A stretch of 5,526 bases of DNA, taken from NCBI GenBank assembly GCA_021821235.1, contig JAKACS010000261.1, positions 1-5,526 of the forward strand, read 5' to 3'. Shown here piece after piece: positions 39 through 5,526 of the stretch (position 1 is the stretch's first letter; the number at the start of each line of letters is the position of its first letter). The translations under genes and the position numbers were made by a program. The DNA is from Bacillota bacterium (GTDB taxonomy: Bacteria; Bacillota; Bacilli; Bacillales_B; DSM-18226). The notes under the pieces were generated by a model. It did not search any database. It saw only the letters and a list, made by a program, of their open reading frames with translations, and was not told the origin of the DNA.

Positions 39-54
39 GTTCTCTATTAAGAAC
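39..54. promoter_or_regulatory. Inverted repeat GTTCT-N6-AGAAC, possible SinR-like operator
   Basis: GTTCT (39-43) and AGAAC (50-54) form a perfect 5-bp inverted repeat with a 6-nt spacer. The left arm continues as GTTCTCT (39-45), which matches the GTTCTYT half site recognised by SinR, the biofilm repressor of Bacillus. A second match, GTTCTTT, lies at 193-199. Established knowledge: SinR represses eps operons, but its main sites are at the epsA promoter rather than in front of epsC. No promoter is visible here, so the repeat may instead be a small RNA stem-loop at the edge of the leader RNA. Confidence 0.3.
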
Positions 55-59
55 ATGTT

Positions 60-176
60 GGTGATGTCTCCTAACCATTAGCAATGGAGGCACTCGGTCA
101 TACTGTGGGTTTAAAAACCTTAGATGCCAGTCGTCGAGAGTGTGATGTGAGGATGGGTTAGATGCCCGTATTTACC
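60..176 (+). promoter_or_regulatory. EAR (eps-associated RNA / 'epsC' RNA) antitermination leader element
   Basis: EAR is a cis-acting RNA found between epsB and epsC in Bacillales. It promotes processive antitermination across the long EPS operon. This region sits directly upstream of an epsC homologue and folds by eye into a fully nested structure. The outer stem is 60-64/172-176 (one G-U pair), and an inner stem is 69-72/150-153. Inside that are hairpin 75-79/83-87 and stem 91-95/138-142 (CACTC/GAGTG). The latter encloses a possible short GG/CC contact (96-97/127-128) and hairpin 107-111/116-120. A small GGG/CCC hairpin (155-157/165-167) lies between the two outer stems. The assignment rests on position, fold and remembered resemblance to the family. 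No covariance search was run, and the ends may be off by several bases. Confidence 0.75.
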
Positions 177-2992: not shown

Positions 2993-4147
2993 ATGGCAGA
3001 TAAAGTTCTTTTTGTTGCGACGGTCGATTATCATTTCAAAGCTTTTCATCTGCCTTATTTAAAATGGTTTAAAGAGCAAGGATGGGAAGTCCATGTAGCA
3101 GCATCCGGCTCACTGGATCTGCCGTATGTTGACAAGAAGTTTACAATCCCGATTCAACGGTTTCCGTTTCATCGCGGAAATGTTCGCGCCTACCGGGAAC
3201 TAAAAGAACGGATTAACGAGAATCATTATAAATTGATCCACTGCCACACCCCAACGGGTGGGGCTCTTGGCCGTTTGGCGGCTCGAAAAGCAAGGGGGCA
3301 TGGCACAAAGGTTTTATACACAGCACACGGCTTTCATTTTTTTCATGGTGCACCGCTTTTGAACTGGCTTATTTATTATCCAATTGAAAAAATCCTCTCA
3401 AGGATGACCGATTGTTTGATCACAATTAATGAGGAGGATTTTCAAACGGCATTGAGGCACCGGTTTAAAGCGGATCAGATCAAGCATGTGCACGGAGTTG
3501 GGGTGAATACAGATCGATTTCACCCAATCTCCCCGGAGGAAAAACGGAGATTAAGAGCAATGTTTGGCTATCAAGAGCAAGACGTTTTACTGTTTTACGC
3601 AGCCGAATTTAATAAAAATAAACATCAACAGCTGTTGATTAAAGCATTGGCAAAAATAAAGGACCAGATCCCAGAAGCAAAACTCTTGCTTGCGGGAGAT
3701 GGTCCTCTTTTATTGGGCTGCAAACAGCTAGCAGCACAGCTTGGAGTCGAGCAAATGGTGGAGTTTTTAGGTTTCCGCCAAGATATTGAACAGCTGTTAA
3801 AAATAAGTGACCTTGCAGTGGCTTCGAGCCTGCGTGAAGGGTTGCCCGTCAACATCATGGAAGCGATGGCCTGCGGCCTGCCGGTTGTCGCCAGCGACAA
3901 TCGCGGGCATCGGGAATTGGTTGATCAAGATCAGAATGGCTGGCTGGTTGAAAAAGAAGATGTTGATGAGTTTGCACATCGAATAAAATTGATTACCACC
4001 AATCGTGATTTAATGAAACAATTTGGGGCTTTTGGTCAAAAGAAAGTCAATACTTTTTATAGTTTGCAAAAAGTACACAGAGAAATGAACGCTGTTTACC
4101 AAGAATTTATGAAAGAAAGGAGGAAAACCGTTTGGATAGCCCAATGA
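2993..4147 (+). CDS. epsD: EpsD-like family 4 (GT-B fold) glycosyltransferase
   Basis: The 384-aa product is a retaining GT-B glycosyltransferase, expected to act on the cytoplasmic face of the membrane and add a sugar to the lipid-linked EPS unit. The N-terminal acceptor domain carries HCHTPTGG (83-90) and AHGFHFFHGA (111-120), a signature of EpsD/Cps-type enzymes, followed by GVGVNTDRF (168-176) at the domain linker. The C-terminal nucleotide-sugar domain has FNKNKHQ (206-212), LLAGDGP (232-238) and REGLPVNIMEAMACGLPVV, with the E-x7-E pair E282/E290 and the GH-RELV segment at 305-310. There is no signal peptide or clear membrane span. The start lies 5 nt after the gtaB stop, with AAAAGG (2978-2983) as a modest ribosome site, so translation is probably coupled to gtaB. 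The 3' end overlaps the next gene. Sugar and linkage cannot be read from the sequence, and the epsD symbol rests on motif and order similarity. Confidence 0.88.
   Translation: MADKVLFVATVDYHFKAFHLPYLKWFKEQGWEVHVAASGSLDLPYVDKKFTIPIQRFPFHRGNVRAYRELKERINENHYKLIHCHTPTGGALGRLAARKARGHGTKVLYTAHGFHFFHGAPLLNWLIYYPIEKILSRMTDCLITINEEDFQTALRHRFKADQIKHVHGVGVNTDRFHPISPEEKRRLRAMFGYQEQDVLLFYAAEFNKNKHQQLLIKALAKIKDQIPEAKLLLAGDGPLLLGCKQLAAQLGVEQMVEFLGFRQDIEQLLKISDLAVASSLREGLPVNIMEAMACGLPVVASDNRGHRELVDQDQNGWLVEKEDVDEFAHRIKLITTNRDLMKQFGAFGQKKVNTFYSLQKVHREMNAVYQEFMKERRKTVWIAQ
4116..4123 (+). promoter_or_regulatory. Ribosome binding site that sets a TTG start for the EpsF-like gene
   Basis: AAAGGAGG is a near-perfect Shine-Dalgarno inside the end of the preceding gene. 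It is 8 nt from TTG 4132, the normal spacing, but 20 nt from ATG 4144, which would be too far. It therefore decides for the TTG start. Confidence 0.75.
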
Positions 4148-5259
4148 GAATTTTGCATGTAGTAGTGAATATGAATCGCGGCGGCGCCGAAACGCTGATT
4201 ATGAACTTGTATAGAAATATCGACCGAACAAAGGTTCAATTCGATTTTTTAACCTGCAAAGAAGGTGTATTTGATCCTGAAATCACTCAATTGGGTGGGA
4301 AAATTCATAAAATCCCTTACATTACAGAGGTTGGTCATTTTCAATACATTCAAGCATTGACCAATTTTTTTACTAAAAATCATTATCAGATCGTTCATTC
4401 CCATTTAGATAAAATGAGCGGCTTGGTACTCCGGGCTGCGAAAAAGGCAGGAGTACCCGTTCGAATTTCACATAGCCACAATACAAAAAGTGAAGGCGGT
4501 ATAGCAACAAAAATCTATAAGTGGTATTCAGGAAAGTTGATTCCTTCCAATGCAACGGAATTGTTTGCTTGTTCTATGGATGCCGCAAAGTGGCTATTTG
4601 GAAAAAAATCAACGACTGCAACCATTATAAAAAACGGAATTGATTTAAAACAATTTCAATACTCTAAAGAAATAAGAGAGAAAATGAGAGCGGAACTAGG
4701 AATCGGAAATGAAACGTTTGTAATAGGGCACATTGGCCGCTTTAATGAACAAAAGAATCACATCTTTTTACTTAAGATTTTTGCGAAATTCGTTAAATTT
4801 AAACCCCATTCAGTATTGATTTTAGTAGGAGATGGAAACTTAAAACCTTTCATTGAAAAAAAGGTGCGCCAAATGGGTTTGATAGCAAATGTTCGATTCT
4901 TAGGAGTTCGAAGCGATGTAAATCGAATCCTCCAAGGGATGGATGTTCTTGTCTTTCCTTCTTTACATGAGGGCTTACCCGTATCATTAATTGAAGCACA
5001 AGCTGCAGGTATTCCGTGTGTGATTTCCGATGTGATTTCCGATGAGGTGAATATGGGTGCTGGACTTATTCATTATGAAAGTATTAAAAATTCACCAAAA
5101 AGATGGGTGCAAATGATCATTCAACATTCCAACACGAAAGTGGATCCAATCAAGTTCATTAAAGAACGGGGTTATGACATCACGATTTCAGCTAGTTGGA
5201 TTCAAGAATTTTATTTAAAACGAGTAAAAAAATTTAGGAGTAGCAGGGAAACAGCCTGA
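4132..5259 (+). CDS. epsF: EpsF-like family 4 (GT-B fold) glycosyltransferase
   Basis: The 375-aa product resembles B. subtilis EpsF closely in order and wording of motifs, and probably transfers a sugar to the growing EPS repeat unit. The N-terminal domain begins MRILHVVVNMNRGGAETLIMNLYR (GGAET at 17-21), a donor-enzyme glycine loop, followed by VHSH (88-91) and ISHSHNT (112-118). NGID (168-171) marks the linker. The C-terminal domain has HIGRFNEQKNH (200-210), LVGDGN (231-236), RFLGVRSDV and PSLHEGLPVSLIEAQAAGIP (276-295), with the E-x7-E pair E280/E288. Translation is taken from TTG 4132 because of the strong Shine-Dalgarno. This gives MDSPMRILHV and a 16-nt overlap with the upstream gene. 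The alternative ATG 4144 would give a 4-nt ATGA overlap. The gene looks richer in A+T than its upstream neighbour. No epsE homologue lies between the two glycosyltransferase genes. Confidence 0.88.
   Translation: MDSPMRILHVVVNMNRGGAETLIMNLYRNIDRTKVQFDFLTCKEGVFDPEITQLGGKIHKIPYITEVGHFQYIQALTNFFTKNHYQIVHSHLDKMSGLVLRAAKKAGVPVRISHSHNTKSEGGIATKIYKWYSGKLIPSNATELFACSMDAAKWLFGKKSTTATIIKNGIDLKQFQYSKEIREKMRAELGIGNETFVIGHIGRFNEQKNHIFLLKIFAKFVKFKPHSVLILVGDGNLKPFIEKKVRQMGLIANVRFLGVRSDVNRILQGMDVLVFPSLHEGLPVSLIEAQAAGIPCVISDVISDEVNMGAGLIHYESIKNSPKRWVQMIIQHSNTKVDPIKFIKERGYDITISASWIQEFYLKRVKKFRSSRETA
5019..5042 (+). repeat. Perfect 12-bp tandem duplication inside the EpsF-like gene
   Basis: TGTGATTTCCGA occurs twice head to tail, in frame, encoding VISD-VISD just after the E-x7-E region. 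The remembered B. subtilis EpsF sequence has IISDSITEKV at the same place with no length difference. The repeat may therefore reflect ordinary divergence or gene conversion-like drift rather than a net insertion. The reading frame is intact. Confidence 0.6.
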
Positions 5260-5276: not shown

Positions 5277-5526
5277 ATGCCTAAAATAAGATGCTTAATT
5301 AGACTGGGAGAGGTGCCTCTACATCTTTATCAGATTACTGCCGGTTTTCTGATGCTAAAACATCAAGGAATTATTGAATTAGAAATTGAAAAACAGAGAT
5401 CGTTCGATCGGGATCGGCTTCCATATAATATGATGGAAGTTATTTTTAACGAGGAAATAAAAATCTTATACGATTTGAATGATGGTTACGATAATCTTTT
5501 AGATCATAATCAAGATTATGTAGAGT
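5277..5526 (+). CDS. Partial gene of unknown family in the EPS operon (N-terminal 83 aa)
   Basis: An open frame runs from ATG 5277 to the right edge without a stop and is cut off by the window. It begins MPKIRCLIRLGEVPLHLYQI and continues through GFLMLKHQGIIELEIEKQ, LPYNMMEVIF, EEIKILYDLNDGYDNLLD and HNQDYVE. A good Shine-Dalgarno, GAGGGG (5264-5269), lies 7 nt before the ATG, and the gap to the preceding stop codon is 17 nt, so it is co-transcribed. There is no signal peptide. The 20-30 region is moderately hydrophobic (ITAGFLMLKHQGII) and the rest is acidic and soluble-looking. I do not recognise the family. By position it may be another sugar transferase or EPS-modifying enzyme, with the YDLNDGY segment a possible nucleotide-sugar-contacting loop, but this is inference only. 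Confidence 0.7.
   Translation, partial: MPKIRCLIRLGEVPLHLYQITAGFLMLKHQGIIELEIEKQRSFDRDRLPYNMMEVIFNEEIKILYDLNDGYDNLLDHNQDYVE

Follow-up and report, generated by a model that had tools for sequence, protein, structure and literature searches.

The original description of the EAR RNA (epsC/EAR, RF01735 in Rfam) is reportedly that of Irnov and Winkler from 2010. To our knowledge it is unsettled how an EAR RNA that may ride on the polymerase leaves the first gene behind it translatable, and we know of no N-like protein for EAR. Passages of the published work assign EAR an antitermination role in B. subtilis, and passages of PMC10653937 and PMC7858274 map it there between epsB and epsC. The put RNA of phage HK022, as portrayed in the passages available on it, likewise acts in RNA-based processive antitermination. 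In phage lambda, about 200 bp separate nutL from the N gene behind it, the RNA of this interval is highly structured, and an RNA loop from nut to the polymerase has been proposed to block N translation (passages of PMC5725501). In the dfn leader of a long Bacillus operon, LoaP overrides a NusA-dependent terminator (passages of PMC12691694).

Here we describe an EAR leader in a 5,526-nucleotide stretch of DNA, which as a whole is referred to below as the window, and compare it with EAR leaders from related genomes. The window carries the following features:

3-20, + strand: probable last codons of epsB (AVLNQ, stop codon TAA at 18-20), assigned by analogy, with only six codons in the window
39-54, + strand: H0, a GTTCTCTATTAAGAAC palindrome (GTTCTCT at 39-45 and an inverted half site), a small hairpin or SinR-like site
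59-168, + strand: EAR RNA, with stems 65-71/86-92, 93-104/139-151, 107-112/115-120, 123-126/132-135 and 154-158/164-168
177-228, + strand: H1, a 24-bp A/U-rich hairpin (inverted repeat I1), 177-200 pairing with 205-228 around loop 201-204
241-250, + strand: GGGGGAGAGG, probable Shine-Dalgarno sequence of epsC
253-2079, + strand: epsC-like UDP-sugar 4,6-dehydratase, 608 aa (Polysacc_synt_2, E 3.5e-124; CoA_binding_3, E 6.1e-14)
2094-2987, + strand: galU/gtaB UTP-glucose-1-phosphate uridylyltransferase (TIGR01099, 412.4 bits, cut-off 326.8)
2993-4147, + strand: GT4-type glycosyltransferase (Glycos_transf_1, E 3.1e-42)
4132-5259, + strand: GT4-type glycosyltransferase, overlapping the preceding GT4 ORF (Glycos_transf_1, E 4.1e-25)
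5277-5525, + strand: ORF past the second GT4 gene, cut by the window end, with no Pfam or NCBIfam match

The EAR of the window is an ordinary copy of the known element. Using cmscan with the Rfam models, RF01735 matched the + strand at 59-168 with 112.6 bits against a gathering cut-off of 42 (E 7.7e-20) and over its full length, model positions 1-117 of 117, and no other family exceeded a gathering score within the window; rows for miRNA and snoRNA families fell far under their cut-offs and were taken as chance. The initial annotation had placed an EAR with a nested multi-stem fold at 60-176. The covariance match bears out the identity and the 5' end, while the 3' end had been drawn 8 nt too long. 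The fold holds as well: in an alignment of 50 EARs, made up of the window and 49 random draws out of 98 further EARs kept below 88% similarity, pairing holds in 97.5% of stem cells (89.8% for shuffles), 17 of the 33 stem pairs have changed on both sides (a level that none of 500 shuffles reached), and cells changed on both sides number 141 versus 32.8 in shuffles, with slid registers of the alignment leaving at most 52.0% paired. Given this significant match and the compensatory changes in the stems, neither of the outcomes named beforehand as refuting the EAR, an insignificant covariance hit or stems unsupported by such changes, was found. A pseudoknot has been predicted for the epsC motif (passages of PMC2864571); by eye, CTAACC at 71-76 could face GGTTAG at 156-161 in the window, and the same bases overlap two EAR stems.

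EAR is common in two of the orders that we searched. At E 0.001, matches were obtained in 190 of 296 genomes from the order of a Paenibacillus, in 255 of 397 from the order of a Lederbergia and in 6 of 150 from the order of a Sporosarcina. Pairs of EARs about 4-32 kb apart on the same contig and strand were seen in G010:C11, G214:C19, G036:C4, G156:C96 and G686:C31, and in one record labelled Clostridia (L019, MAG: Clostridia bacterium RGIG5739) an EAR and an H1 stand before galU, by transfer or mis-binning. For the comparisons that follow, loci were collected from a pattern scan, from EAR matches among those listed (in two orders the best-scoring part of all matches) and from EpsC matches, and of the resulting 260 instances 224 were left once copies identical over the EAR plus 50 nt, and those lying too close to the end of a locus, had been removed. 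Because the species share ancestry, the counts given below do not represent independent events, and p values should be read as approximate.

The EAR in the window is the leader of an exopolysaccharide gene, epsC at 253-2079, and has the stems of the B. subtilis EAR, a full-length match to the same model and, probably, the position between epsB and epsC that the element has there. Very probably the order epsB-EAR-epsC is as in B. subtilis, the epsB side being read from six codons, since the AVLNQ ending resembles that of ORFs preceding EARs in relatives and two of these ORFs (L004 and L197) match the Pfam family AAA_31, presumably as expected of an EpsB-type kinase. Among 45 of 85 such upstream ORFs, most end like GVILNEK, GAVINKAG or GAILNEG (L146 and L149 are exceptions), about 31-94 nt before the EAR, and GKST is present in 37 of the 85. 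To class the genes downstream, the first open frame of at least 150 aa was compared by BLAST with the window's four proteins; it is epsC-like for 133 of 224 EARs, galU-like for 56 and something else in 31, with no such frame in 4. The proposal that EAR and epsC form a conserved unit is therefore partly supported: the link holds in the 133 epsC loci, yet the pair is separable, because a galU-like gene stands first in 56 of the 224 and another gene in 31.

The downstream operon had also been called rearranged, with epsE absent. It does differ from the B. subtilis eps operon in that galU follows epsC in the window; however, in 126 loci that extend at least 5 kb downstream and match any of the window's four proteins, the order met most often is epsC-galU-GT-GT (30 loci, the window counted), with epsC-GT-GT lacking galU in 11, so that the rearrangement is a difference from B. 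subtilis and no rarity. An absence of epsE cannot be claimed, since the operon leaves the window after two GT4 genes and one ORF.

Nor does the EAR lie directly before epsC, as had been stated: the feature drawn at 60-176 missed a 24-bp hairpin, H1, which intervenes at 177-228. This hairpin has 24 uninterrupted pairs and a predicted folding energy of -23.0 kcal/mol (z -4.4; none of 200 shuffles reached so low a value). It lies beyond position 168, where the RF01735 model stops, in a place where no other Rfam family rises above its cut-off. A stem of comparable score (at least 36) occurs within 100 nt after 132 of 224 EARs but in none of the controls, namely 448 dinucleotide shuffles, 223 upstream stretches and 224 stretches 400 nt further on. 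Counting only stems of at least 20 pairs in the same 100 nt gave 146 of 224 versus 16 of 448 shuffles, 10 of 223 upstream stretches and 5 of 224 stretches 400 nt on. A second setting, adopted later, lowers the score to 34 and widens the search to 300 nt, with controls of its own; it finds a hairpin behind 161 of 224 EARs, in none of 224 mononucleotide shuffles and in 6 of the 223 stretches taken 700-1000 nt on.

At this second setting the hairpin is present in 116 of 133 loci in which the next gene is epsC-like, 31 of 56 galU-like, 14 of 31 other and 0 of 4 without an ORF. The 63 of 224 EARs without a hairpin at threshold (17 of 133 epsC, 25 of 56 galU, 17 of 31 other and all 4 lacking an ORF) indicate that H1 is dispensable for some EARs; L049 and L233, at least, have stems that the ungapped detector missed. 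When the 30 best EpsC matches were chosen by EpsC similarity only, blind to RNA, all 30 places had an EAR and 29 a stem scoring at least 34 within 330 nt, the thirtieth (L128) having two pairing arms around an inserted loop. The hairpin also varies little in size: arms average 26.7 nt (sd 3.2) and run from 22 to 38 nt in 100 representatives, and the 161 stems have a median of 26 and a mean of 24.7 pairs, with a few shorter ones such as L249 with 17. Insertions of about 100-200 nt, between EAR and H1 or within the H1 loop and with the arms kept, were seen in L103, L107/L151 and L128/L175; for L107/L151 the detector had picked another inverted repeat inserted before H1, and in L151 we took the covariance model match at 6282-6368 as H1.

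The position of H1 follows the EAR. The median gap from the EAR end to the hairpin is 10 nt (IQR 7-24), and 102 of 161 hairpins start within 13 nt, whereas the distance from H1 to the next long ORF is more variable (IQR 15-110, from -80 to 353, measured to the frame's first start codon, hence some negative values). A covariance model of H1 (R1) built from 22 sequences, the window among them, matches the window at 174-231 with 58.2 bits. In 100 loci (811 kb), some of which contributed sequences to the model, it found 59 places, never more than one in a locus, and 58 of these fall no further than 330 nt 3' of an EAR; the other 41 loci gave no match at E 0.01. We also searched 12 genomes, scoring the 150 best candidates in each. 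Ten had a match, the best match of each lay by coordinates at an EAR/epsC leader, and so did all matches with E at or below 0.0033. The matches not placed beside an EAR were G521:C13, G543:C1:3269801, G076:C1:1299462 and G002:C25 (E 0.008-0.38). No match was returned for G013 and G621, although the hairpin of G621 (L080) is in the model, which indicates that this genome search loses true copies.

The hairpin is not peculiar to the window's clade, given its presence in a locus of the B. subtilis group (L096), where it lies 27 nt behind the EAR, ends shortly before the epsC ribosome site and has no T-run. In both this locus and the window, then, a long hairpin stands behind the EAR and outside the Rfam model. 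The EpsC encoded at L096 shares 94.7% identity over 457 aa with an EpsC used for comparison, and B. subtilis itself probably carries H1, judging from this locus of its group.

Many close relatives of the window carry a small ORF of about 46-59 aa, with the pattern PKSIKKAxRYIKQDASKEQLxEIKKL, in the interval from H1 to epsC. It was seen in L105, L106, L112, L114, L116-L119, L121, L123, L124, L130 and L132, and a simple pattern search detects it in 21 of the 133 epsC loci; Pfam returned DUF1659 alone for the L105 copy, at E 0.089, and no ORF of this PKSIKKA type was seen in the 24 nt that separate H1 from epsC in the window.

Two lines of evidence indicate that H1 acts as RNA. Among 22 aligned hairpins, 22 of 24 pairs show two-sided changes, cells changed on both sides number 119 versus 35.0 in shuffles, and 92.9% of cells are paired versus 38.0-52.1% in slid registers, the rows having been preselected for a strong hairpin, a 4-nt loop and arms of 23-28 nt, which favours a high paired percentage. 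Furthermore, a palindrome in DNA should treat G-T and A-C mismatches alike, and our detector penalises both equally, yet 98 H1 stems less than 85% alike contain 241 G-T versus 40 A-C mismatches where composition predicts 1.5 to 1. This excess has p 2e-21 against composition and 1e-13 against slid registers (873 to 442), both rough values that ignore relatedness. Covarying pairs together with G-U far above A-C thus point to a role as RNA, and we hold with high confidence that the element is an EAR and that H1 is conserved as RNA in the order EAR-H1-gene.

A smaller palindrome, H0, precedes the EAR. Passages of PMC3163267 give the SinR consensus as GTTCTYT, bound with higher affinity as an inverted repeat, and H0 fits a predicted SinR operator, with GTTCTCT at 39-45 and TAAGAAC at 48-54 (reverse complement GTTCTTA) one base off; it differs in lying probably behind epsB and not at a known promoter. 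The pattern GTTCN8GAA[CT] occurs in 82 of 223 upstream 150-nt stretches of EARs versus 1 in a far control, and 74 of the 82 sites stand before epsC. The palindrome conserved before EARs, GTTCTTTATWAAGAAY, which is SinR-like in sequence, has an orientation bias of 44 to 1. Specifically, GTTC..GAAT occurs 44 times and ATTC..GAAC once, and variants of G-U type total 51 versus 5 of A-C type, so the palindrome before the EAR may be a small RNA hairpin instead of a SinR site.

What might H1 do? In the published B. subtilis scheme, EAR is transcribed after epsB and folds, and the polymerase then reads through terminators further down the operon. If EAR stays attached to the polymerase, the RNA between the two would form a loop, and the epsC ribosome site would be hidden in it. 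H1, with about two helical turns of double-stranded RNA, could allow an RNase III-type enzyme to cut the loop, or could at least compact and insulate it; in either event epsC might be translated while the polymerase stays modified. RNase III substrates are near-perfect double-stranded RNA of about two turns, and H1 has this form, with 24 pairs in the window. Mini-III prefers paired ACCT/AGGT (ACCU/AGGU in RNA), which occurs in 10 of 100 H1 representatives, among the commonest four-mers with two G or C (mean 3.7) and not decisive; none was seen in the H1 of the window. We put forward an RNase III-type cleavage and release stem tentatively, as one possible role for H1.

A role in insulation or stabilisation seems to us about as likely, the two being our best guesses though each with a limited share of belief: a passive H1 could block pairing of EAR with later RNA, or shield the RNA end from exonucleases. 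Its start near the EAR end, its fairly constant length and its sequence differences between clades would suit such a role; however, a 25-bp stem seems in our judgement longer than insulation needs, and a shared sequence pattern persists in the arms of many H1 copies. We consider it unlikely that H1 serves the epsC leader as an intrinsic terminator or attenuator and is the first of those that the polymerase ignores under the action of EAR. Its place between an antitermination RNA and the first gene does recall the dfn leader, in which a leader RNA hairpin and later terminators are combined as they would be here, although the hairpin bound by LoaP is a small UNCG hairpin and H1 a 24-bp stem. The stem of the window ends in GTTTTTA, L011, L188 and L203 have T-rich tails, and, with T inside the 3' arm counted, at least 5 T fall in some 8-nt segment across the stem end in 90 of 161 cases. 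In the 8 nt directly behind the stem, though, at least 5 T are present in just 20 of 161, so most H1 stems are not plain terminators, and mean GC is 0.28. No T-run follows the stem in the B. subtilis-group loci L096, L083 and L084. A terminator scan of the window does not list 177-228, where the stem has a GC of 0.21 and so lacks the GC-rich stem before a T-run that characterises intrinsic terminators.

The remaining explanations are far less credible. H1 could be a DNA feature, either a palindromic operator or a mobile repeat, as its 52-bp inverted repeat and the GTTCTT word that it shares with the SinR-like site might suggest. Single copies cannot tell RNA from DNA, since some score higher in antisense (L203, L204, L208 and L230, with L200 and L223 matching in antisense only); across copies, the asymmetry of GT over AC, the differing sequences found at this position from locus to locus and the few matches elsewhere make a DNA feature very improbable. 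We give just as little credence to a two-state switch in which a long-range repeat closes the EAR and competes with H1. Positions 41-57 and 190-206 are complementary at 15 of 17 (inverted repeat I2, which joins the GTTCTT-type word of H0 to the same word in H1), and the window ranks 4th of 161 in complementarity between upstream stretch and 5' arm, but relatives barely exceed unrelated loci in this measure (16.84 vs 16.60, sd 0.24). As a general feature, a closing helix at 41-57/190-206 was unsupported by permutation over loci.

Returning to cleavage at H1, the layout EAR-H1-epsC matches that of nutL, the RNase III region and N in lambda: an antitermination RNA, a structured stretch and the first ribosome site. 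RNase III reportedly modulates repression of lambda N, to go by the title of a cited paper. The likeness is one of layout, and lambda differs in employing the N protein, while cleavage of H1 is only proposed. By extension, and speculatively, EARs may often be two-part elements that pair an antitermination RNA with a double-stranded stem of their own, cut by RNase III for release, which would free the ribosome site of the first gene with the polymerase staying modified; as part of the same speculative reading, this could be the lambda nutL-RNase III-N solution, separately evolved in the Bacillus and Paenibacillus groups.

The passages searched on EAR and processive antitermination, a scope outside which the first EAR description lies, contain no description of H1; such silence is weak evidence, and the novelty of the hairpin is unproven. 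The EAR match and the gene order alone would be ordinary, and the hairpin that had been missed is the interesting part of this locus. Its conservation suggests that the Rfam model RF01735 stops short of a conserved part of the element. Conserved with the EAR, including at a B. subtilis-group locus, H1 provides a concrete and cheaply testable candidate for how the first gene behind an EAR would remain translatable.
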